A stretch of DNA of 64,000 bases, from positions 496,001-560,000 of the forward strand of contig JAJEKV010000218.1 of assembly GCA_021234155.1 (NCBI GenBank). The letters are read 5' to 3'. The notes under the pieces are model-generated. The model saw only the letters and a program-made list of their open reading frames with translations, was not told where the DNA came from and did no database searches. This document shows positions 6,702 to 54,847 of this stretch, one piece after another. The position numbers and the translations under genes are program-made. This stretch comes from Isoetes taiwanensis. Lineage: Eukaryota > Streptophyta > Lycopodiopsida > Isoetales > Isoetaceae. How positions within the stretch are numbered: the first letter of the stretch is position 1; each line of letters opens with the position of its first letter.

Positions 6702-6974
6702 TTCTGCCTCTTGTCTTCGTCATTAGTCATCAGATCGCAAGAAGCTTGAACAAAAAATGGATGGAAAGAAAGAAACAAGATCTCTCTCCCTCGGGAAAGG
6801 GGGAATCAACCATCCCTCCGATATTCTCGCGAATTTTGAATTTCCCACTTCCCATAATACTAAAAGAAAGTGCTAATTTGGGTGGACAAATGGACAATAA
6901 AAATGAGACACCGTAACTTGCGAGAACCCACCTGTGCTCCTGCACATTCCATCTAGCTAGCTACTGAGCTCTCA

Positions 6975-7530
6975 CTTCCAATCAGCAGGCCTTTAGGCGC
7001 TGAGGCCCCATTGCCACGGTGTAAGCAAGATTAGGGAGGCGAGTATCGTCCATACTGACCATCTTTTGGAAGTAGATGATGTGTCTGCCAAGGGCGCCCC
7101 TCTGAAGAGGCAAGAAGCCTGTCTCATGCAACAGTATCTGGTATGGAACTGTGGACTTTACATTTGTAAGTGGATACCATTTCAATAGTTTGGCCACGAT
7201 AAGTGAGAATTGGAGCCCTTGGTTGGTGTGCGGATTGGCGGACGATATGAGGACCACCTTGATCTTGGCCAAGTTGACGCGCATGTCAGTCGCCTAGCGT
7301 AATGTGTTCAGGGCATCGAGATGGTGTTGTATGCCCGATTGAGTGTGAGGCAGGAGCACATCATCAACATAGATCAGTTGTCTCATTATCTGGTGTAGAA
7401 GTTGAGTTCCATCAATTGCCCCCCACTGTCAGCAAGCCATCTCTCCAACTGATCCACATACATGCCAAATAGTGTGTGAGAGAGAGGGCATTCCTAGCAG
7501 ACCCCGATACTGCTTTCGAAGGATGGATTG
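6975..7530 (-). mobile_element. LINE fragment (reverse transcriptase C-terminal part)
   Basis: Minus-strand translations match the LINE at 13684-15395. They include CPLSHTLFGMYVDQLERWL near 7490-7410 (compare CPLSPTLFGLYIDQLEHWL), VNLAKIKVVLISSANPH at 7280-7230 (compare VNLAKTKVVLISSSRHP), STVPYQILLHETGFLPLQRG, and LPNLAYTVAMGP. The piece lacks the catalytic YADD region and both ends. It is a dead, truncated copy of the same LINE family in the opposite orientation. Confidence 0.75.
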
Positions 7531-13170: not shown

Positions 13171-13661
13171 TCCAATCATCCAAACCAGAACTGCTCCTCG
13201 TCCTCCTTGGCCTTGGAAAACCTGATGAGGTTTATCATCAGTGTCAGAAAAGCTGAATCAGAAGCTAGATAAGAAGTTGGAGTTGAGCTGAACGGGGTGC
13301 AACCCGCCGTAGTCACCAAAACTGGATCAGAAGCCAGAAGAAGTCGAAGTTGAGCTGAAGGGGGATGCAACTCCGTCATAGCCACCAAGAGCCGTCGGAT
13401 GGCTAGACTTGCTAGGTTTCTTCCATCATACTGGCCGCTGCTAGTGCCAGAAGAATCCATCGAAATTTTGAAGGAACCCTAAAAAAGGGCATGAAATCTC
13501 AACCATAACGTCTAGGTTACTAAATCTCGACCATTGAAGTTAGGGCAAAACCTTATAATATAGGATAGGATGATCAAATCTCTTCCATTGATTTCATCAA
13601 ATCTGGGCCGCCCAAATTAGGGCTGGGTCCAACACTTACACAATAACATTATAATATAAGA

Positions 13662-13683
13662 TTCACATACAACTACACAATCT
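13662..13683. repeat. Right half of the LINE left target-site duplication
   Basis: The 22 bases from TTCACATACAACTACACAAT to 13683, joined with 9809-9823 across the Helitron, match 15396-15432 at 34 of 37 positions. They are the left target-site duplication of the LINE, split by the Helitron. Confidence 0.75.
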
Positions 13684-15395
13684 CTCTTTTGGTTGAGGAT
13701 ACCAGAAACCGTCGGCGGGACCTGTATTGTTGCTTTGTTGACTTTGCGAAGGCTTTTGACACCGTGCCTCGGGAAAAGTTATGGGAAATATTGCGGCAAC
13801 TAGAGGTTCCCGTGGATATGCAAAATGCAGTATACAGGTTGTACGAGAGTTGTACAGGCCAAATGCGGATGACGGCACAACCATTCACTAGCAGTATTGG
13901 GGTCCACCAAGGATGTCCTCTTTCCCCAACATTGTTTGGTCTGTACATTGACCAGTTGGAACACTGGCTCATGGACAAGGGGGGGTGGCGGGACCCAACT
14001 TTTGCATCAGGTCATCAGACAACTCATCTATGCAGACGATGTTGACCTCTTAGCTCACACTCCAGAGGATACGCAGTCTCACTTAGATGCTCGGATACAT
14101 TCCCGCCACCCACGAGACATGAGCGTCAATCTGGCCAAGACCAAGGTGGTCCTAATCTCATCCTCGCGCCATCCAAGGCCCCCTTCATTCACTTATCGAG
14201 GGCAACAAGTGGAGGTAACACCCACCTACAAGTATCTGGGAGTGGAGTTTCCTTCTACACTATCTTTGGAACACTTCCATAAGATTGCGTGTAGCGCCAG
14301 GCCGAAAGCACTCTATGCAATGAGAACAATAACCACGCAGCGTAACTATATGATTGGGGCATCAGGCACATCTGTTCAGGGTATTGGTAGAGCCCCTTCT
14401 TTTGTATGGAGTTGAAGTCTGGGGCCCAGTGGTGTCCCTTGCTACTTGGAGCGACTTAGAACAAGTGCAGAAGGCCTTCTTAGCACGGGCACTCGGAGTG
14501 AAATCCACGGTCCCATATCAAATTTTGTTGCGGGGAGACGGGTTTCCTGCCCTTCAGCCGAAGCGGCCCTTGATAGACACATCGTCTATTTCCGAGGAAG
14601 GTGGTAAATATGGATGATGATCGCGTACCGCGACTTGACTTATGCAGTGGCAATGGGACCTTAACGACTCAAGAATTGTTGGAAGGATAAAAGAGTGCAG
14701 TGGCTAACTAGATGGAATGTCCAGGAGCACATGTGCATCCAGGTAGAAACAGACTCAGATCGTGACAGCCTGAGATGTTACCTTCATGCTTGTTTCTCCA
14801 GCAAGCTTTGGGATTCCAGGGCTCTGGAGCAAGTCAAAACAGCACATTACAAGCAGCACATAAATCCCACATTAGAACGAGGCCCACGGCTACTGCGTTC
14901 ACATCGCGCCCATGAAAAGCGCGGGCATATCGCCTCCATTCAAGACAGGTGCCCACCATCTCCGGATTGAGACAGTCGATGGATTGGGGAGCCACGTCCG
15001 GGATAGGGTTTGTCGGTGCTGCTTTGAGGCGGAGCCATTGAGGATGAGTGTCACACTTTCCGTGAGCGCCCAAAGATATGATCGATTCGGACACGCTATG
15101 CTCGGTTGATTAGACCCCGATGAGCCGCTACACATGATCTTGGGGCACGACTTGGTGCGCCACTCGGATCATACATTCAGGAAGTACTAGACTTGAGGGC
15201 TCAGATATGCCCCCAGTCAACCATTTAATTGATGTCATCAGTCTTATTGCTGCCACGGTTTTTCCCTTGAAAACCCTTCGGGGCGGGGGTTTTTTAATCC
15301 GGGCAGTAATGTGACTGCTGCGCTTTTTGTATTGGGTCCCATAGGCCGATTGGTCTCCGTGGACGATAAAAACAATTCTATTCTATTCTTTTTTT
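13684..15395 (+). mobile_element. 5'-truncated LINE with reverse transcriptase
   Basis: The translation shows reverse transcriptase motifs in order: CCFVDFAKAFDTVPREKLWE, VHQGCPLSPTLFGLYIDQLE, YADDVDLLA (catalytic YADD, 14029-14040), and the thumb region VNLAKTKVVLIS and YKYLGVEF. Further C-terminal blocks are KSTVPYQILL and a degraded cysteine motif, RVCRCCFEAEP. Several frame changes and stops make it inactive. The 5' part (endonuclease) is missing. The 3' end carries TAGGCCGATTGGTCTCCGTG followed by a TTCTA-type short repeat. Flanking 37-bp duplications mark retroposition. Confidence 0.85.
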
Positions 15396-24199: not shown

Positions 24200-27100
24200 T
24201 TTGTTTCTTGAAAAGTCATCATGCCTTATGCACAATGATAACATTTCAACCAAGTTTCTCCAAAATCTTCTCTTCGTCCGCTGCTCCAAGCAAGTGAACA
24301 ATTTTTCCTTTAACTTTGTGACCTTGGGGCATATCCACAATAATGTGGATGACTTGTTCTGCATATACAATAGCACCACTATTCTTTCCACCAAAGATGT
24401 AACTAGTTGTCCCTGAATGAGTATTTCTATTGCCCTCATATCTTTTAAAGTACTTTCCCTCAAGAACTTCATCACCTTTCACAAATCTATTCCCATGTGC
24501 ATCAACCATATCTTCTTGAAGAGCATGCTTTGGGACTGAGCATAGCACCAGCCAAAACATATCACCATCTTCGTTGTCAACTGGGGCCTCAACTGCAAAT
24601 ATTGTCCCAATACCTACGAGATCAACAAGAGGCGCATGATCATCAATGTCTTCAGTGTGTTCTCGTAAATTATAGCTATCTCTTCCACGCAAGGGTTCCA
24701 AAATACGCGCTGCCCAACCACCAATTTGTTTTATATTCTCACATTGGTGGATCTCACCGTACATGCAAAATGTGCAAAAGCATGCAAATCGTCTAGTCAT
24801 CACTTTCGTTGAATCCTCTTTGCTTATACCACGAATGCTATGAATTTTTCGCGTGCCTTCAACTGTTTTACAGTCCCATGCTTCTCTACGATTGACATCA
24901 TCGATTTTGACTTCCCAAAAGTATCTTTTCACATCTCTTGTTTGACTAGAACAAGTTGCTGCTGCGCCAGTGGACAGGTTATCAGTGAGCCAAGAAGTAG
25001 CAACATGAGCGTTGGGTTCAATACAGCTATCAGCCTTTAATTGCTCCTTTTCTACCGCGTACTTAACATGAGCCCCTTGCCCGTCATGTTCTCCTTTTCC
25101 GTGACCAGAACAAAAGAAATTCCACTGCAATGGAACTCCTGTACTAGTAAAATATCGTGGAACAAAATAAAATGGACGGGCGGCCTTAAAATGCGCTGCA
25201 GCTCCATCTGACCAAACCCAATGCTCATTCATCTCATACCCTTGTTTCTGGACCCACTCATGATACAACCTGAAGCAGTGCTGCACGAATAATGTATCGT
25301 GTTCTTTATCATCCGAGATATAAAAGTGGTATTCCTTTATAGGTTCCTCGGACTCCGACTCACGCCTATAGGTAATATGAACTAGTATAGTAACTTGTTG
25401 ACTATGAAAATACTCACTTTGGATTTCATTCTCGCGGGCTTAAACGTAGTTTTCAAAGAAAATCGACCACGGAAACAATAACACCAGGAGGAAAGTTCTT
25501 CACGCATTCTCTAAATTGTTTGTCTTCCCAACATGCTGTGAAGTTGTGGGTAACAAAATCTTTAACATGTTGGTAAAAGAAGCTTATCAATTGTGCTGGT
25601 GATGTCATTTTTGAAACAAGTTGCTTTCTACTTTTTGGACGACCCTCTTTATCTTTGCCATCCTTCACATCCTCATATACTTTCCATTCAACGAGTGGGC
25701 CAGACTCTGCTAACTCCTTAGGGCAAAACCTAATCTTTTTTTATCCACATTGAGCACATTCTCCGAGCAGGCAACTTAGTCTATGCCATTCAGCCCCCTC
25801 ACTTCTTGGACATACGGCCATTTCCCAAATTTCGCGAAGCCTAGAAAATGTTTTTTCTGTTGCTATACAAGACTGCATGCCTTCCTTCCATTCACAAACA
25901 GAGCAAGTACATCTACAATCTTTATGAATGGCTGAAGTTGTCCTCATTTCATTCAAGGATACTCTCAGTAAATCCAACTGCACGTGACGCACACAACAAC
26001 AAGTGTTGCGTTCCTTTAATTTCTTCACATAAAAGGGCTTCCATCTCTCAAACAATCTTTGCCCAACACCTATATCAGGATATGCCTCCTTAAATTGCAA
26101 AAACATTTCAACCTGCCAAAAGCACAAGACGCGTATTAGACTTGAGCTACCTATCCAAATTTCAAGAAGAAACACTGGTAAGAGCACTTGAGTAAGTAAT
26201 AGAAGCTAAACAATGGCTAAACACATGTGGATAGTAGTAGGCTATGAAATTCTCCATACTGTTACAGTATTTAACATCATATACCCTTTGCTGGGAGCTT
26301 CATTGGAACGTTGAGATTGTCTGATAAGGTTACATTTCCATAGCACAGCCATTAGTATGTTGACTTACAGCACAACGCTATTCATATAATATATGACCTC
26401 AAAGGATTAAACCAAGGTTGAGAGGTATTGATTCTTGACATACGTTGTCAAGCTGCCATAGACTATCAAAGAAGTCACTTTCTTATTGTTGAGAGCAGAA
26501 TGACAGCAATATGCAAGCTCAAGTATAAAATATACATTTGGCCCACAATTATTCTTTTCCGTATGCAATATGTATCCCTTCCATAGTCATACCAATCCAC
26601 AATTGCCCGGGATGCAGCAAGAAAAGAGCTTCATTTACAGGTAAGCATCTCCTCCATATGTGAAAAAAGGAACTTGCACTTTAAAATTAGAAGGCTTGCA
26701 TATTGGGTCTGTGAGTGGTGTACCTTACATACAACCAAATGTAATTTTGGAGTGTTATATCCTCTAGATCCAAACTAGGCTTAATATTAATTATGCATGC
26801 TAAAGCTTTAACATAGCAATGATGCTAGTAAGCTGCATTGTAGATATAGTATACCAATTCCAAACGTCCAAATGTTAAAGCAAAAGTAACTTGTCTACTT
26901 TGAGCACTTCAAATTACCTTAACATATATTCAACGGTACTTTTGAGCATCAAAAGTAACTTGATGTACCTTCAAAGGTACTTTGAGCATCAAAAGTAACT
27001 TGATGTACCTTCAAAGGTACTTTGAGCATCAAAAGTAACTTGATGTACCTTCAAAGGTACTTTGAGCATGAAAAGTAACTTGATGTACCTTCAAAGGTAC

Positions 27101-28087
27101 TTTGAGCATCAAAAGTAACTTGATGTATCTTCAACGGTATTTTGAGCATCAAAAGTAAGTAGCTTACGTACTTTTAAATTCCTCTAAAGTAGCTTCACAT
27201 ATACTTTCTTTAAAAATCCTTTTAGGAACTACTTTAGATGCTTCTAGGTCCAACTGTAGGTTTGTGTACTTTATGTACTCTAATTCCTTGTGAGCTTCAA
27301 AAGGCATTTTGGAGACTTATATCATGTATTTAAGCTTCCTTACCTTCCAATCACTCTTAAAAAAATCAGTATTTTTGAACAATAGAAACATATTTATTGT
27401 TTTCATATTCTTTCACACATGAATGAATTAGTTAATGGTACATCCAGAAAATTATAAAACAAAGCATGTGAGAATCACTTACCTGAGGGATTTCAAGATA
27501 GTGGGTTGGATGCGTGATTTAAATTGTCTTTGCCTTTGCCAAGCTTCTTCCCGCAGATATCTTTCTTGTTTGGTGACACCCTAGTTTTTCAAATTTCAAA
27601 ATACTTGAATCATGTCTATAACCTCTCGGGACAACCTATCACTACGTGATTGCCTTAAGCCATGAGCCCATAATCCATCCTCATTGATAATTTTTTTCTT
27701 TCTCTCACAAGCCCTCTTAAAATTACTCTTATTAATACCTAGTAGTTTTGCCTTGGCCTTTTTGTTTTTCATTTTACTTCCTGTTGCATCTGACTCTGAC
27801 ACTACCATGGATAATATGGCATTCTTAGCTGCAAGATGATCGCAACTGTGAGCATTCTTCACCACTTGCAAAGAGCTTCTCAAATTTGTCATGACTTCTA
27901 ATAAGCTTTCACCTCCAAGAAGAATCTCAGGATTATATGCTGCTGCCATTGATGAATGACGAACAAATTTACCCAGAATTTGTTGTTGCCTTTCTTTATC
28001 CAAATGACCGGTTTGTTGTTGAAAAAACTGCACCATGTTATTTACTAATCGATTGTCATATTGATGGCAACCTTTGGACTTTCCCAT
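24200..28087 (-). pseudogene. DDE-type transposase-like gene, multi-exon
   Basis: It starts at 28087 (MGKSKGCHQYDNRL) with a first exon to about 27596. A degraded VSPNKKDI block sits near 27560. After a long intron, an exon from 26112 (VEMFLQFKEAYP) carries a cysteine cluster (NTCCCVRH, CRCTCSVCEW, CLLGECAQC) and continues through KDFVTHNFTACWEDKQFREC. The catalytic-like part runs 25470-24246: VVSVVDF (first Asp), EHWVWSDGAAAHFKAARPFY (second Asp), NFFCSGHGKGEHDGQGAHVK (Glu). D-D-E residues in a HGKGE-D-G context mark a DDE-like nuclease fold. The last block is open for 346 codons. Stops and a frame change elsewhere, including just after the first Asp, indicate a decayed copy. I do not know a superfamily name. 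Confidence 0.6.
26937..27160. repeat. 40-bp tandem minisatellite
   Basis: The unit starts ACTTTGAGCATCAAAAGTAA and continues CTTGATGTACCTTCAAAGGT. About five and a half copies run in tandem, the inner ones almost identical and the outer ones more diverged. It lies in the intron of the DDE-like gene. Confidence 0.9.
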
Positions 28088-29400
28088 GCTACTAAAGCAA
28101 CTTTTTCACCTGCACAATATTATAAAAAAGTCAGTCTTTATCCAGTAAGATGGACTAATCACAAAGTAAAACTAGCCTAGAAACAAAGTTGAGTTGGGTT
28201 TCTAATACTAATTTATTATGTTTCTAGCTCAACCAGGACATGTGAAGATTTTACTTAACTAGTCTTAGGGCCCATAGAGCCAACAGAGACTCATAGTACT
28301 CCTAGTACTGTTATTGATCTCTCAATCCAGTTTGCTCCAGCAACCGTGGAGCTACATAGGACTGTAAAACAGGATAAAGTGCATGTCAATTATGGTTCTA
28401 CTAGTGGGCAAGACAATAGGGCTGACAGCAATGGCATTATACATCAATTCTACCTAGACTATTCTTGACGATGACTGCAAGAATATATGTCAAAGGAGCT
28501 ACTAGTTGTTGAAAGCTGCTTATAATTCCATCTGCTACCAGAAGGAAGACTGAATGAAGAGATGAATGCTGCAAAATCATACGTTTTTTGCTTGGGCCCA
28601 AGCTTCACCTTACGACCAAGAATCAAGTGCAAAGATGCTGGTTGAATCAATCGGCAAGTGAAAAGGCTAAAATCTATGTCTTAATCAGCCCGCTTAATTA
28701 CATTCTATGTGAAAGCTAAATCTTGCATTTAGATAATGAGGAAAAGAAAAACATATGGATCGGCTCTCGGTCTTGAGGTATGGAGTTGGCCACATGCTCA
28801 ATGATCTTACATCTGCCTACTAATTAGATTTAGGACTTGCAAGATTTCTAGGTTTAGACAAAGATCTCATTTTTTTTATAATTCCTTATGCGCACAAGCA
28901 ATTAGCCGTCATGTTGTCGTCACTTATGGATGGCCTTACTACCATTCTTAAAAACGATTGGTATGTTTTATCGCTTAACGCGTGCATGTTAATCACCTTT
29001 TCATTCCTCGAAATTTGAGTTTCAACTTTAATGGTGGTATGCGTGAGGGATCGCCTCTAGTAAATGTTGTCATTCTCTTGATGATTTGATGGTTGGCTAG
29101 CATGTAATATTGTTCGTTCGAGATCTCTAATGATGTAGACAGTTGGATACTCATGTTTTGCAGCAATATTCAACATGGGATGGGCTGCAACTCAAGTTTC
29201 ACGCATATAAGTACAAATAGCAGTTTGTACTGTATTGTTCTTTGAGAAAAATGACTAGAAGTCAGCATTGCATGCACCTCAAATATTACTAATATGGCTC
29301 AGGTCATTGGTTAACTGTCTCATAGCAGATCCGTGCTATAGATAGTTGTCGTAATGCGTTTACTACGGTAAATGTAATGGTTATCCAGGTTGCAAATCTA
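28088..29400. other. Spacer, no gene recognised
   Basis: Upstream of the DDE-like gene there is no supported coding region. A promoter could lie here but no clear TATA/start arrangement was identified. Confidence 0.35.
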
Positions 29401-31123: not shown

Positions 31124-31854
31124 TCATGGAGGGACTAGTCCTTTCTTTGTCAAATAACTCTCAAGATAGGGATCCATCTCCTTAGTCCAATCTAGTTCTG
31201 GAAGCACTTTGACAACATTTGATACCGTTTTACCAGCAGCCAACCCACTCATGATGGATATGAATAGTACTAGAAACTCATCTGTTGAGTAATCTAGTGG
31301 AGTATAATTTGGTGGATTTGGAGCCTGACCTTGATTATAAAAGCACTTAAGAGCATCATGATCTACTATTATGATGTCCTCTTTCTTTTGAATATCAAGC
31401 TGATCCATCATAGTACCAAGATGTTTAACGAAGACCGGTTTGCCATCCAGATCTCTTGGATGTAGAAACTTTATACACTTAGTTTGGTCCCAAATCGTCA
31501 CAATGTCTCTATTCATTCCTGGTAATACCCTAAGAACTTGTTCAATATTTCTGCGCTCCATTGAGGACAAGATAGCAATTCGAAACAATCTGCCATCATA
31601 TCTTCTAAGTGTGGGCGAGGATAGATCCACTTAGTATTCGATTCTAGAGGGACTTGTTCGAAGTCATCCCTGTTAATAAGCTTCTTAGGAAACGTTTTAC
31701 ACATGACACCATTCATATCGAAGAATAATTTTGTCACAAAGCAGGTGGAGCCCTGAACCATAGAAAACAAAGAGTTAGCCATACAAAAATTGTCTGCAAT
31801 ACATGGCAAGCTCATTTTGTTCGTCATAAGTATTTTACATATCGCGCCCCGCAT
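31124..31854 (-). pseudogene. Assembly B: FCP1-like HAD segment
   Basis: Two overlapping frames together cover a HAD domain. The N-terminal half reads FVTKLFFDMNGVMCKTFPKK (motif I position) and WIYPRPHLEDMMADCFEL. The C-terminal half reads RIAILSSMERRNIEQVL (motif II region), VTIWDQTKCIKFLHP, GKPVFVKHLGTM (lysine region), and KKEDIIIVDHDALKCFYNQG (motif III region, compare IIVDDSPYK). The catalytic DxDGT reads DMNGV, so the second Asp is absent, as in genes A and C. A conserved tail ends LESYLTKKGLVPP. A frame break separates the halves. It follows the methyltransferase-like segment on the same strand and may be the C-terminus of the same transcript. Confidence 0.55.
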
Positions 31855-31857
31855 GAA

Positions 31858-32150
31858 TTACCTTTCATCATTACAGTCTTTATGGTCATCCCCAGCCGTC
31901 GTAGCGTCTACTTCACTCCCCGGATGCTTACTGCCAGAAGCATCAACTCCATGGTTTAGTTCAGACACGTTCTCTTCTATGAGATTTTGATTCCTAACCT
32001 CAATGGTTGAATCTGAGCTTGCATGATCATCCTGGCTTGTATCAGGAACTGCCATAGTCGTACCCCCAAGTGTAACATTACCAATTGGAATATTACCAAG
32101 CGTAGACTCCATATTTTGTTCCATGATCTCACGTTCCCACGCTAGCATTG
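31858..32150 (-). other. Assembly B: acidic linker segment
   Basis: A 96-codon frame rich in Asp, Ser, Thr and Asn (WEREIMEQNMESTLGNIPIG, TSQDDHASSDSTIEV) joins the methyltransferase-like and HAD segments. A disordered linker is inferred; no domain is seen. Confidence 0.4.
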
Positions 32151-32227
32151 CGGCCTTCTTCTCGGGGGTTGCATTCCTTTTTTGAACATTCTAGAGTTGT
32201 TCTTGGAGGCAGTTATGAAATAGTAGT

Positions 32228-33122
32228 CTACTTCTTCCCTTTGTAAGGTACCAAAGCAAAGGGGTTTTTATCTTTGACAGGATTCCAATCAGCCGTAGCT
32301 AGTACCTTTTCGAAAAATACTTCAAGAGAATCCCTTGACTGGTCATCGTTGACAAAATTTAGATATCTTCTTAATGTCTTCAGGGCTTCTCTACCAATGG
32401 ACCCTCCAACATGAAGTCCACAACAAGTGGTATCAAGTGGTGCAAAAGCCTCAACAAGATAGCTTGCCAGATTGATTGCAAACACATGTTTATTCAAGAG
32501 CCCCTTTTCTTTTGTCAGCAAGTCCAGAGTGATGTCTTTCCGGTAAAGGTCAGGAACATCAAATTCCGCATTCATTTGTTTCATCCTCATCATCTGCTTT
32601 GTAGAACACAATTTTCAAGCTGGGTTCATCCAAAAGAAAACACTGCCATGCACCTTTATCTGATGCCCCTTTGCTCTTAGCTACCTCATAGTCATCATCT
32701 GGCACAAGGGATATCATTATGAAGATTATACAGGCGCTTTTAAACTGCATCTTTAAATCAGTATCCTTTGTCTCAAAGAGAAAAAAACCTTCTTTAACGA
32801 CCTTTAGGCATTCCAAGTCGTATGAAGCCACCAAAGCATGCATATGAGGCTCTCCTAGAGGGCATAGGATGACAATAGTAAAGAGCTTCTCAGTTGTTAA
32901 GCCTATGCAACTAGTAAAAAAATTGATGTACTCTTTTTGAGTCATCCCCCTCTCTCCTTTTGCAGTCCTGCTATCCAAAACAAACAGAGAAATATTACGA
33001 GGGCCTATTGTTGTATCGGGTAGGAGACCTTTATAGCCCGTAGAGACCAGGTATTGGAGTGCAGGTAAGTCACCACCAGCATCTTTCAGGATGGCAACCT
33101 TTCTTCTCAGCTCAGCCATCAC
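32228..33122 (-). pseudogene. Assembly B: amino-methyltransferase-like (N6A/N4C type) segment
   Basis: Two overlapping frames read in an order fitting a beta-class DNA methyltransferase. The block ISLFVLDSRTAKGERG sits where motif IV (DPPY) is expected. Next come FTIVILCPLGEPHMHALVAS, DKGAWQCFLLDEP and VPDLYRKDITLDLLTKEKGL. The block YLVEAFAPLDTTCCGLHVGG then SIGREAL resembles motif I (FxGxG, cofactor loop), and RRYLNFVNDDQSRDSL the acidic-loop region. DSRT instead of DPPY would abolish catalysis. The segment ends ALVPYKGKK. There is a frame change between the two halves. This family call rests on motif order and spacing and needs profile confirmation. Confidence 0.45.
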
Positions 33123-33146
33123 CTTATCTGATAGTTTTGTAGTATG

Positions 33147-33823
33147 CTATTGGTTCTTTGATTTTCTGTTTTTCAGAAAGTCCTTGGGCCAGAAGATATA
33201 TTTCTTGATGTTATCAGCAGACACGCCATACTTGTCTAGCAGGCCGAGTTCAGACAATGTTACATCACCAGATAGCTTCTGAAGTTCTTGCCCAACTGCT
33301 ACCTTCATAACTCGCATGTCCTTTAAATGAGTGCAACAATCAACGAAGGACATTTTGTCCTTAACTGAAGAAGCCTTCTTGTACAGAACTTCTTTGTTCA
33401 TGCATTGATCTAACAGCCAAATGACTTCATCATCCTGAAGGCCCTGTACTTTTCTCATCTCGATGGTCTTCAAATCAAATATGGAAATATCTTGAGGAGG
33501 CACTCTTTCCATTGCATTTGGTATCTATTTCTGAGCATACGCATCCCAGAACTCGTTCCACTTCGCCCAGACTTCGTCCTTAGCCAAGATGATCTTGTAG
33601 GCATCTGTAGGGCCTTTGGAAGATGCTTCAAAAGTTTCCCCAGCTTCCTCTCCACTTTTTTTCCTGTCTTTTTGGGCCTTGGTTTCTTATCTTGGATGAT
33701 AGTCTGTGCCAAGCTCTTTTCCAATGCCTTATACTCCTCAGACTTCGTGCCTCCCTCTTTTGTTTGCAGCAGTCTTCCATATTCTATCCATTGTTGGCGG
33801 GCATGAGAGAGTTGTTCCATGTA
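33147..33823 (-). pseudogene. Assembly B: basic middle region
   Basis: Frames at 33470-33823 and 33147-33512 give a Lys-rich stretch (KKPRPKKTGKKVERKLGKLL) followed by a mixed region (IFDLKTIEMRKVQGLQDDEV, GVSADNIKKYIFWPKDFLK). The two frames overlap and probably come from one original product. No domain is recognised. Position between the DGQH and methyltransferase-like parts suggests a DNA-binding spacer, but this is inference. Confidence 0.4.
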
Positions 33824-34081
33824 AGGGCTGCACGAATAAGAAAATCATATCAGCCAAAACACGCAGGGCAGACAAAAATATATTGCTTTTTGATCAAGCC
33901 AACAGGATAATCAAGAAAGGACAAAGCCGAGCGTGCCCAATTCGCTTCTGGCAAAAGATTGCCAATTTGCGCCAGGCATGTATTCATGCTAACAATTTGT
34001 GCCAGGCGTGAATTGGCAGCATAAATACATGCCTGACCTAGTCTATTGCTGTTATTCTTACTTGGTATATCTAAATGCCAC

Positions 34082-34765
34082 CTAATATACTAACCTTTTA
34101 TAAAGGAAGACTTCGCCCATTTCGTTTAATGTTGCACTAATCTCTGTGAGGTCCTCTGCAGGTGTATGGGGGCTTAGAAACTGACACCTCCTATGGTTGT
34201 AATGAAGCAGATACATGATTTGTCCTGTTTGCTTAGCCTGGTTGGAGAGGGATCGTTGTGCTTCAATAGAATGCTGTCCGTCAATAATAAGAAAGCATAC
34301 ATTTGGGTTCTCCACTGTAAGCTCCTCCAGCGTTGTCCACTGCAGTGGAGCATCCTTTTTCCTATCCTAAGGAAGCATGTCTGCTGGCATGGGGACTTGG
34401 CCTGGATTCCTCACCATCGCCCTCAAGATTTTTCTTCCATGCTCAGGATCATACCTCCTACTAATAAATGTTGACTTATGTGATCTCACCAGATGGTCAA
34501 CATGGATGGGATGTGTAAAAGATTGGCCAAGTGGGTAGTTGTCTGCATACTAGACTAACCTACTCATTGCCACCAGCTGCAATTTTTTTTGGGACTCATT
34601 TTCTGCTAGCATGCCATCAATTGTTGCAGCTGGGATGTCCTTTCCTAAGTCCAGCAATTTTCATACATCCATGATATCATTTTGATGCTTCAAGCCTTCC
34701 AGGTAGTAACTTGGAGAAGATCCTCGCAAAGCTCTCCTCATTGCAAACACCCTTCACTTATAGAC
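34082..34765 (-). pseudogene. Assembly B: DGQH (ParB/DndB-like) segment
   Basis: The minus-strand text reads QSFTHPIHVDHLVRSHKSTF, ISRRYDPEHGRKILRAMVRN, then VENPNVCFLIIDGQHSIEAQ. The last block has the hydrophobic strand plus DGQH(R/S) signature of DGQHR/DndB and ParB/sulfiredoxin-fold proteins, where this loop binds nucleotide. Further on, CQFLSPHTPAEDLTEISATL looks like a domain continuation. It precedes the methyltransferase-like segment on the same strand. ParB-methyltransferase pairings are common in phages and bacterial mobile elements and unusual in plants. The frame is interrupted in several places. Confidence 0.45.
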
Positions 34766-35839: not shown

Positions 35840-37100
35840 TTGTCTATGAAGTCATAGGTTCCTTGTGGGTGTCGTCATAGGCAACAAAATTATGCAACAG
35901 ATTTAGGAGAATAATTCGTCTCATAGGCAGAACACAATGAAATTATTCTTTGTTTATGCCGTCATAAACAATATATAATCTATAATGCATACGGTCATAC
36001 GTAGTCTATGATCTATAATCTATGCCATCACAATCAGGGGAAAAAACCTTCAAAGAAAGTATTGCTTGCCTATGCCGTCATAGGCAATCTATAATTATTG
36101 TCTATGAATACATAGCTAGAAGCTAACTAATTATTGCATGTCCTGCATTGCCCAGAGCAAAAAATGAAGATTAGAAGATGAACTTAAGCAAGAAATCTTG
36201 TGATTGGGGAGAAATATGCAAAAAAGAAAAAAGAAAAAAGTGGTGAACAAAACTGCATAATGCAATGCCAAAAATCCAACAAAAAGAACATTGTAAAACT
36301 CAAGTTTTGCTAATATTGGCATCTACAGATAGATATCAAACAAATTTTACACAAATAGAACTCAAATTTCGTACCTGTTTCCTGCAATTCTCTGTAATTC
36401 TCTTTGGCTATGCATACTTTTTCAAATTTCGTACCTGTTTCCTACAATTCCTATAATTCTCTTTGGCTATGCATACTTGTTCAAAATATTTGCAGATTCG
36501 AGACAAGCAGCAAGCTCCTTAGGCGCAATAAGCTGCTATGTCAAATTCAACTAAATATGACAGAAATAAACAGCTGTAAAACAGAAATAAAAAAGCTTAG
36601 GATTAAATCCAGATGGGCTGTACGAAATTTTCATCGTGCTTTGACATCTGTGTTGAGCCGAATCTCAGAGATTTACAAAGATTTACCTGAGTTGAATCTG
36701 GCTGACAGCTAAGCACTGAATTTTTATGGCACTGAGTCGAATCTGGGTTGAGTCGAATCTAGGCTGAGCCAAATATCAGAGCCGAGTCTGGGCAAGGTCG
36801 CTGCCAGATTTCTGATGACTTTGCCATCCAAAAACATTCGTTACCTATGCCGTCATAGACTCAAATTTTTGCCGTCATAAGCGTAGGGTTTCTTTCTTTC
36901 GCTCTCTCTCTCTCCCTTAAAAAAATCTATGATATTATAGCCACTTTGTTTTTTTTTTAATCTTTGTCAGGCAAAAGCTTTTGAAAATTTTGTCTTTGCC
37001 TATGCCATCATAGGCATGCCCCTTTTTTTTGTTCTTTTCTTTTTTCTCGTTTTTTGAAAAAGAAAAGAAATTGGTCTTTGCCTATACGGTCATAGAGAGT
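35840..37100. repeat. Cluster of the dyad motif GCCTATGCCGTCATAGGC
   Basis: At least ten exact or decayed copies of an 18-bp dyad (7-bp arms GCCTATG/CATAGGC around CCGT) are dispersed in about 1.3 kb. Clear ones lie near 36070-36087 and 36998-37015, with partial ones near 35875, 35953, 36846, 36866 and 37079. Such clusters resemble subterminal repeats of CACTA-type transposons, but no CACTA terminus or transposase was seen. Confidence 0.65.
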
Positions 37101-37985
37101 CCTTTCTAAAAATCGTTCTGGTGCCACCATATGCATGTCCCCTCTCTTTGTGCCCTTTCCTTTTTGCTTAGGAGCAAGGATGTGTACAAGTGCAAAATAA
37201 ATGAATATCGTACCCTCTTGAAGCAGTTCGATACATGCTTCGTTGATAAGACTATTGGACAACAAGATCTCAAATAAATTCCTACACCCAGCTCTTTATG
37301 ATGTCCTACCTTTTGCAGAGAACAAGTTGCTCCAGCTTCTGGTGTCATTTGGTTTGCGTCAAGACTCTAAGTTCAGGAAAACACTTTGCAAGGGTGCAAT
37401 AAGAGGAATATTCCATCATCAATAGAGTTTAGAAAGTAGGAGTAGATATTGCACGCTTTCGAAACAAATGATCAAATGAGCCTTTTGATTCTTCTACTTC
37501 AATAGTGGCATCATCCGTAGCATTCAGAACCGCAGACACATCGCCAACAGGACTCAATCACCTTCCAAAGACACTTGTCTTTGAGAATCATCTGGATTTG
37601 CCACTTCCATAGTTTGAAGTTTGTCCAGCAAACCTCAAAATGAGCCATCGTTCATAAGAGCTCAGAGTTTCGGTAGCAGCATCATCAATACAGAAGGAGG
37701 TGGCGAAAAACTAAAACTTAGAATTAATTGAGAATAACTGAAAACAGAGTATACAACTTATGCAATCTTAGGACCGCAATGGACCCATAACCTGTTGAAA
37801 CAGGATCAAGTAACTGAATAACAAGAATAACTTGAGCAACTGTAATGCAAGAATCATAAAAGTGCATTGTATGCTGGAGAACAATTGGTAAAACAAAACG
37901 TCCCAACATTAGGTTTAACTACAAGCTTTCTCAAAACTTAAGGCTTGGATTAAGCCTAAACTTTATATTCCTAATTGTCTCCACT
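37101..37985. other. Spacer with CT-rich short tracts
   Basis: No gene recognised. Tail of the dyad-repeat region followed by AT-rich DNA up to the Gypsy fossil. Confidence 0.3.
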
Positions 37986-53232: not shown

Positions 53233-54847
53233 TCTTATATTATAATGTTATGCCGTATTGAATGGATCAAGCCCTAATTTAAATGGCTGAGATCGTCTGA
53301 TTGAAATTGAAGGCCAAGATTTATCGCACGACTTCCCACTACCGTGATTAGTCATGATTTGATCTCTTAAGGGAAAAGAAAAAGGAAAAAGGAGGAAAGG
53401 CATGGGTAAAAGGGAAAAGGGGAAGGGAAAAAGGGCACGGTAAAATGGCGAAGAGGAAAAGGGCAAAAGGGAGGGGAAAAATGACATGGAAAAAATGAAA
53501 AAAAAAGAATAGAAATAGAGAGGGAGAAAGGGGAGGGAAAAAGGGCAATGAAAAAAGGGGAAGAAAGAAAGGGTGGGAAAAGGAGAAAAAAGGTAAGGGA
53601 AAAGGGTGGGAAGGAGGGGATGAACAAAGTGCGTGGGAAAAGGGAAAGGGAAAGGAAAAAAGAAAAACAGAGATGGAAAAGGAAAAAGGGAACCTGGAAA
53701 AAGGGCACGAGGAAAAGGGCAAAAGGGAAGGGGGAAAGGGCATGAGAAAAAAAGGAAGCGGGAAAGGGTGAAGAAAGAAAAAAAAGGGAAGCAAAAAGAG
53801 AGCATCGAAAAAGGGAAGGGAAAAGGTTAGAGAGAAAAAGTGAACAAAGAGGAGAAGGGAAGGGGAAAATGGCATAGAAAAGGGGAAAAGGAAAAAAAAA
53901 AAAAGGGAAAAAAAAAAAGAAAAAAGGCATTGAGAAAAGGGAACGGGTGGGAAAAAAGGTGAATAGGAAAAGGGTGGGAAGAAAGCAACAAAGCGCATGG
54001 GAAAAGAGAAAGGAAAAGGAAAAAAGAAAAAGGGAGATGGAAAAGCGAAAAGGGAACCTAGAAAAAGAGCAGGAGGAAAGGGCAAAAGGGAAGGGGGAAA
54101 GAGCATGCAGAAAAGGGGAAGAGGGAAAGGGTGAAGAAAGAGGAAAAGGGGAGCAAAAATAGGGCATCGAAAAAAGGAAGCGAAAAGGTTAGAGAGAAAA
54201 GGTGAGGAAAGAGGAGAAGGGACAGGGAAAGAGGAAAAGGAAAAGAGAGTGGAAAAAGGAAGATAAAAAGCGGCCGAGAAAAAGGAAAGAGGGAAAGGGT
54301 GGGAAAAAGAGGAAAATTGAAGAGGGAAAGGGTGGGAAAAAGAGGAAAATGGAAGAGGGAAAGGGTGAGAAAAAGGAATAAAAGAAGGGAAATGGAAAAA
54401 AAAAAGGAAAAGGGAAAATGTGAAGGAAAAGGAAAAGGAAAAAGGGAAAGGGAAAGGGAAAGGGAAAGGGAAAGGGAAAAAGGGAAAGGGAAAAAGGGGA
54501 AGGGGAAAGGAAGGGAAAGGAAAGGGGAGGGAGAAGGGGGCTAAAAAAAAGAAAAAGGGAGAAGGATAGATAGATAGATAGAGAACAAGATAACGTGTAG
54601 GAAAATAAGAAAAATGGGAAAAAGGAAAAAGAAAGGTGTGTAGGATAATGAGAAAAAGAGGAAACACGGAATAGAGCAACAAGCAAAGGGAAGGGAAAGG
54701 TATCAAATGCATAAAAACCTTTTATAGCTCAACAACACTGGGCTTGGTTTCTATTACATTGATTTATGAACAGAAGTCTGGGTTGACTAGGTTTCCATCC
54801 ACACAGGTTCCCAACTCATACCCAGCAACGCTGGGCACCATTACTTA
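53233..54847 (+). mobile_element. Non-autonomous Helitron filled with a purine-strand minisatellite
   Basis: The 5' end is TCTTATATTATAATGTTAT at 53233 after host A, as in the other two complete elements. The 3' end has CCCAGCAACGCTGGG (54821-54835) followed by CACCATTACTTA, where relatives have CACCATTACTAG; the last bases have decayed. About 80% of the interior is the GGGAAA-type repeat at 53370-54700. No coding sequence is present. Confidence 0.7.
53370..54700. repeat. 1.3-kb purine tract (AAGGGAAAAGG-type minisatellite)
   Basis: The plus strand is almost pure A and G, made of degenerate units such as GGGAAAAGGGAAAG. A clean GGGAAA hexamer run lies at about 54440-54480, followed by a short GATA run at 54566-54580. 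Half-kilobase blocks recur: the phrase GAAAAAGGGCACGAGGAAAA near 53695 and a close relative near 54058. Long Phe/Pro-rich frames on the minus strand are by-products of composition. Confidence 0.9.

Follow-up and report, generated by a model that had tools for sequence, protein, structure and literature searches.

Beyond the DGQHR box itself, a QR pair and an FxxxN motif are features of the DGQHR/DndB family in the available part of one account of these proteins (PMC4619093). In the portions available of a 2025 survey of the ParB-CTPase fold, sulfiredoxin is the commonest eukaryotic representative, fusions of ParB to N6_N4 methyltransferases are more frequent in phages, and no word starting with 'plant' was found in the main text (PMC12704722). 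A bacterial ParB-methylase with nicking activity is cited in the accessible part of a further source (PMC5512222). Here, we describe a locus in a stretch of 64,000 nucleotides of Isoetes taiwanensis DNA (assembly GCA_021234155.1, contig JAJEKV010000218.1, positions 496,001-560,000 of the forward strand), referred to as the window and numbered from its first letter. On its minus strand, the window carries a decayed coding unit with a HAD domain and a DGQH box. In the explanation we favor, with about even confidence, a large plant gene with a DGQH-box N-terminus, an unclassified middle and a NIF/FCP1-type HAD end is represented here by a dead copy. An initial annotation of this DNA had proposed ParB/DndB-like, methyltransferase-like and HAD segments, in a broken copy of a cassette acquired by a plant. 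The HAD domain, the broken copy and the plant DNA were borne out, the ParB part held at the level of a motif, and the methyltransferase part was not supported; the captured DNA-modification cassette is an interesting guess. To our knowledge, a DGQHR-type box and an FCP1-type HAD domain in one plant protein would be a new architecture.

A decayed coding unit with a C-terminal HAD domain

Every string quoted in the initial annotation was found on the minus strand in the order claimed, running from about 34750 to 31127: LIIDGQHS, a basic stretch (KKPRPKKTGKK, about 33662-33823), LFVLD (within 32562-33146), GGSIGREAL (near 32407) and a HAD-like end (about 31740-31127). Between 31100 and 34800, open reading frames (ORFs) of at least 90 residues add up to 1058 residues on the minus strand and 530 on the plus strand, while 200 order-2 Markov resamplings averaged 156 and never exceeded 862. 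Across nine segments (976 codons), the frequencies of G at codon positions 1, 2 and 3 are.31,.14 and.24, resembling those of another plant ORF of the window, that of the PC-esterase (.28,.16 and.17). The difference between the first two positions (.17) was equalled in none of 2000 same-length composites of chance ORFs (mean.03, maximum.09). That only one stop falls within the nine segments carries no weight here, as cutting them between stops mostly ensures this. Taken together, the nine segments look like a single decayed coding unit, with the following features:

to 34753, minus strand: same-frame extension upstream of the N-terminal region, with two more stops
34097..34549, minus strand: N-terminal region with the DGQH box (VCFLIIDGQHSIEAQR from 34300), with one internal in-frame stop
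33828..34094, minus strand: putative GT-AG intron of 267 nucleotides, phase kept, read by eye
33973-34035: hairpin with 25-nucleotide arms, 88% complementary, inside the putative 267-nucleotide intron
33662..33823, minus strand: basic region of the decayed frame
33150..33629, minus strand: helical-looking unclassified region, two open pieces parted by an in-frame stop
32601..33146, minus strand: middle region with LFVLDSRT, taken as motif IV in the initial annotation; motif matrix score -10.2 bits, no family
32231..32593, minus strand: middle region with LHVGGSIGREAL, taken as motif I in the initial annotation
31861..32190, minus strand: acidic linker-like stretch
31753..31861, minus strand: putative small GT-AG intron of about 109 nucleotides between linker and HAD, read by eye, with a frame change adjoining
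31582..31740, minus strand: first part of the HAD (NIF/FCP1-type) domain, KLFFDMNGVMC, with a candidate nucleophile Asp at 31717-31719
31127..31588, minus strand: second part of the HAD domain and C-terminus, in a different frame, PF03031

The reading frame of this unit is disrupted, in agreement with the broken copy described initially. Of five in-frame stops, three share the frame of the DGQH box, two of them lying upstream of it, while one splits the helical region and one comes ahead of the LFVLD part. In addition, the frame changes four to five times along the unit, once beside a putative intron. The window copy most likely yields no full-length protein product and is dead. With several frame changes, and with the acidic linker at 31861-32190 as a conceivable boundary, two or more adjacent genes or pseudogenes could have been read as one, the HAD gene being distinct from the DGQH gene. 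We consider this quite improbable, as the segments are co-linear on one strand with open frames that nearly abut, and they jointly show the codon-position bias. In the favored explanation, all parts would belong to one protein.

At the C-terminal end of the unit, the two HAD pieces joined by X match the Pfam family NIF (PF03031) with E=2.4e-7 and 31.0 bits, against a curated cut-off of 21.8, over profile positions 3-155 of 160. This result agrees with the HAD/FCP1 assignment made initially. The second piece alone scores 21.4 bits (E=2.2e-4), just under the cut-off. Judged by profile match, the C-terminal NIF/FCP1-type HAD is the only established domain of the unit. The catalytic motif of HAD enzymes is DxDx(T/V), and the Asp of FFDMNGVMC presumably occupies the nucleophile position. 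FFDMNGVMC departs from this motif, as the first Asp is kept and the second is replaced by Asn (DMNG). Because of this replacement, the HAD domain of the window copy is probably weak or non-catalytic.

The DGQH box and its flanks

The DGQH box was compared with a position matrix and a profile built from 15 bacterial DGQHR/DndB proteins, which came from 22 loci (L161-L182), seven of them without a qualifying ORF. With the position matrix, the 16-residue box at 34300 scores 21.8 bits, while the next-best site in the window reaches 7.2 bits and the best site in 25 Markov-3 simulated windows reaches 16.7. When the N-terminal region was aligned to the 15 proteins with hhalign, the probability was 87.7 at a score of 43.7, which no shuffle out of 150 reached. 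This alignment spans just 24 columns, and nearly all of its signal lies within the box residues. Against a profile of phage ParB-methyltransferases, the same region was equalled by 30 of 150 shuffles. Two of the bacterial DGQHR proteins (L163 and L165) are about 780 residues in length, with a long N-terminal extension ahead of the box.

Around the box, flanking blocks placed at allowed spacings were equalled by shuffles in 226 of 2000 cases upstream, 138 of 2000 downstream and 84 of 2000 for the sum, so that the support added by the flanks is marginal. The best downstream placement has its elements in the expected order, with a strand (MYLLHYNH) followed by LTEISATLNEMGEV, which carries an N where FxxxN has its N (SxxxN). 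The best upstream placement is without a QR-like pair at the QR position; an RR lies near the expected place by eye only.

Several results weigh against the favored explanation. When the nine box residues were kept and the rest was shuffled, 13 of 100 sequences scored equal or better with hhalign, and the fold assignment therefore rests on about nine residues. The upstream block scores -8.6 bits here, compared with 18-71 in six true members (all training sequences), and the pentapeptide DGQHR reads DGQHS, with S in place of R. No match to the DGQH region was found in Pfam, NCBIfam or PADLOC. The AlphaFold2 model of the DGQH part has a mean predicted local distance difference test (pLDDT) value of 40, and ParB is absent from the best 50 of its 185 Foldseek matches. 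At the other end of the unit, the HAD part found no match in NCBIfam or among PDB sequences. TIGR03187, PF14072 and PF02195 gave no match in Pfam and NCBIfam searches at E<=10, a threshold to be read with the HMMER filters, which discard the majority of matches above about 0.1. Structure models made with AlphaFold2 from single sequences, two in number (pLDDT 40.4 with a predicted template modelling score (pTM) of 0.29, and pLDDT 41.7 with pTM 0.48) were uninformative, and the best Foldseek E-values among the matches listed, 1.1 and 0.27, are not evidence either way.

The same evidence bears on whether the box is a coincidence, in a plant gene, decayed or captured by a transposon, that has a NIF/HAD end and an ordinary lineage-specific N-terminus unrelated to ParB or methyltransferases. 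Only the HAD part is recognized above chance by any library, masking the box leaves an hhalign alignment that is out of register (4 of 100 shuffles as good), and very many possible motifs had been surveyed in the initial annotation. However, the box outscores all 25 simulated windows and the elements downstream of it stand in the expected order, and we regard coincidence as possible but on the unlikely side. Of the ParB/DGQHR assignment made initially, a short motif beyond chance stands, while library profiles give no match and the flanks are only marginal. A ParB/Srx-type fold around the DGQH box is plausible from these comparisons.

Searches for relatives of the unit were made in several collections. 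Six pieces of the gene were used to scan IMG/VR, and the DGQH region to scan GTDB, and nothing related was found by this method, which finds close relatives only; it is seeded by exact matches of eight residues, so that more distant relatives would escape it. Three loci were reached in IMG/VR with a degenerate DGQHS pattern and were rejected as ordinary ParB-like DGQHR proteins, unrelated to the unit beyond the box. Searches with tblastn against phages and plasmids gave nothing significant. Those in plasmids, at E 0.7 to 9, fell on a RepA, an Fe-S protein, a peptide synthetase or no annotated gene, and on no methylase.

The middle region and the surroundings of the unit

Beta-class amino-methyltransferases are characterized by motif IV, (D/N/S)PP(Y/F/W), and motif I, FxGxG. 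The initial annotation had placed these motifs at LFVLD and GGSIGREAL and had called motif IV inactive. At the claimed motif IV position the sequence reads DSRT and scores -10.2 bits, and 463 of 500 shuffles contain a site that equals or exceeds the best one anywhere in the region. The motif I site, VGGSIG, is the best-scoring of the region, yet 127 of 500 shuffles are as good. Since neither motif is rarer than in shuffles, calling these strings methyltransferase motifs is an interpretation, and an 'inactive motif IV' becomes meaningful only once a methyltransferase is shown.

Profile comparisons gave a similar result. One methyltransferase profile was built from 39 diverse N6_N4 proteins (29 of 30 loci and 10 phage rows) and another from 79 of 80 viral ParB-methyltransferase loci. 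In hhalign comparisons of the middle, 38 of 150 shuffles were as good against the first and 15 of 150 against the second. With HMMER run without filters, and with the methylase of Synechococcus phage S-SKS1 added to the methyltransferase set, shuffles did as well in 443 of 1000 cases for the first half and 623 of 1000 for the second. Furthermore, about 347 residues separate the box from motif IV, compared with a median of 142 (130-162) in phage fusions, as measured in the 53 of 79 in which a filter located both box and motif IV. Altogether, the methyltransferase claim found no support in Pfam, NCBIfam, PHROGs, PADLOC, PDB sequences, hhalign, HMMER or motif matrices. In the helical region (33150..33629), which has no Pfam or PADLOC family, PHROG matches reach only E 0.08 and 0.16. 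PHROG matches at E 0.06-0.41 were set aside as chance, including one labelled DNA methyltransferase (E=0.082), which lies in the helical region and not in the proposed methyltransferase part.

One search gave a different picture. When the 296-residue middle region was compared by tblastn with 50,697 phage records, the sole distinct match at E<=10 was the S-SKS1 DNA methylase, found in two records of one phage at E=8, which is chance level. A 128-residue piece matched the same methylase at E=2, alongside an unannotated phage record likewise at E=2. The S-SKS1 alignment (31% over 65 query residues) covers motif X and motif I of the methylase, with DPFCGS against HVGGSIG, and falls in the register proposed in the initial annotation. 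As controls, the reversed 128-residue piece matched a scaffold protein and, in four records of which one is annotated as hypothetical, a polymerase locus, and the shuffled piece matched nothing. The S-SKS1 match may be taken as a hint that gives the methyltransferase idea, unlikely without it, perhaps a real though still minority chance.

In the view of the initial annotation, a plant would have captured a phage-type ParB-methyltransferase fusion, which spread as a mobile or multigene family and was later fused to a HAD domain, its methyltransferase being inactive in this copy. The order of the parts fits a beta-class amino-methyltransferase, the single distinct phage match of the 296-residue region is a DNA methylase in the proposed register, the controls gave a polymerase locus and a scaffold protein or nothing, and fusions of this kind are typical of phages in the part of the 2025 survey available (PMC12704722). 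However, that match is at chance level, the 128-residue piece also matches an unannotated phage record, plasmids yield no methylase, and the results of hhalign, HMMER and the motif matrices are all matched by many shuffles. The spacing of the parts is also longer than in the phage fusions measured, relatives are absent from the scans for close relatives, and no direct or inverted repeats of at least 20 nucleotides bracket the unit between 27.5 and 38.5 kb. Such a capture is, in our view, unlikely. No second copy of the decayed unit was found within the 64-kb window.

The surroundings of the unit agree with a plant genome, as claimed initially, with window ORFs that encode a PC-Esterase (E=6e-57) and a lipid-transfer protein. 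The window further contains a kinase fragment and the reverse transcriptase of a long interspersed nuclear element (LINE). The LINE-type fragment lies at 13647-14042 and 6929-7514 (PF00078, 4.7e-13), and the sequence around it is repeated in inverted orientation near 7 kb, with 68-73% identity. Copies of an imperfect palindrome around TTGCCTATGCCGTCATAGGCAA are scattered at 35859-37107, 5' of the gene, in families D1-D3 with five copies in D1. At 24249-28105, three minus-strand ORFs (397, 154 and 169 residues) resemble, by eye, a decayed DDE-type transposon. None of the three matched NCBIfam, and Pfam searches of the first and third gave only a sub-threshold match to PF08775 in the third. This match of the ORF at 27599-28105 to a ParB family (E=0.015) is below the family cut-off and was set aside as chance. 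A long repeat array is found at 53251-54728, with open frames rich in Pro, Phe, Ser and Leu on the minus strand and a strong strand skew.

The proposed ancestral gene and comparison with known systems

As favored here, the ancestral gene would have had about 980 codons in the tested segments and two introns. The most likely role of the DGQH box in intact relatives would be that of the nucleotide-binding loop in a ParB/DndB-like fold. The N-terminal domain of the intact ancestor may have bound nucleotide or DNA and brought the HAD domain at the C-terminus into position on a protein substrate. The middle would be an unclassified domain whose fold may be methyltransferase-like, in a remote or degenerate form, and it may have served as a substrate- or DNA-binding pseudo-enzyme. 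A bolder version, which we consider distinctly unlikely, is a plant family that fuses a phage-type ParB/DGQHR domain, a dead amino-methyltransferase and an FCP1-type HAD, in which a captured module was turned into a nucleotide-switched, DNA-reading pseudo-enzyme platform. Among the matches listed from titles and abstract openings in open-licence literature, there was no report of a plant ParB-methyltransferase-HAD protein. At present the locus is a lead, with one decayed gene, one solid domain and one strong short motif. Should the middle turn out to be a methyltransferase, the unit would exemplify the domestication of a phage-type DNA-modification module in plants.

Among known systems, the unit resembles the NIF/FCP1-type HAD phosphatases (PF03031) through its C-terminal profile match. 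It differs from them in having DMNG in place of DxDx(T/V), in about 780 preceding codons of other sequence and in being a broken copy. With the DGQHR/DndB family (TIGR03187, PF14072; ParB/Srx fold), the unit has in common the FLIIDGQH box, the strand-helix order after the box and the N at the FxxxN position, but it differs in S for R, in the absence of a library match and in flanks that stand only marginally above shuffles. Eukaryotic sulfiredoxin would share the ParB/Srx fold with the unit, whereas its FG/SGCHR signature, as described in the available part of the source (PMC4619093), is unlike the box seen here. Lastly, phage fusions of ParB to N6_N4 methyltransferases (PF02195 with PF01555) have the same order of a ParB-like box followed by putative methyltransferase blocks. 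In contrast to these fusions, the unit is without their profile similarity and DPPY, and has a longer spacer, putative introns and a HAD end.

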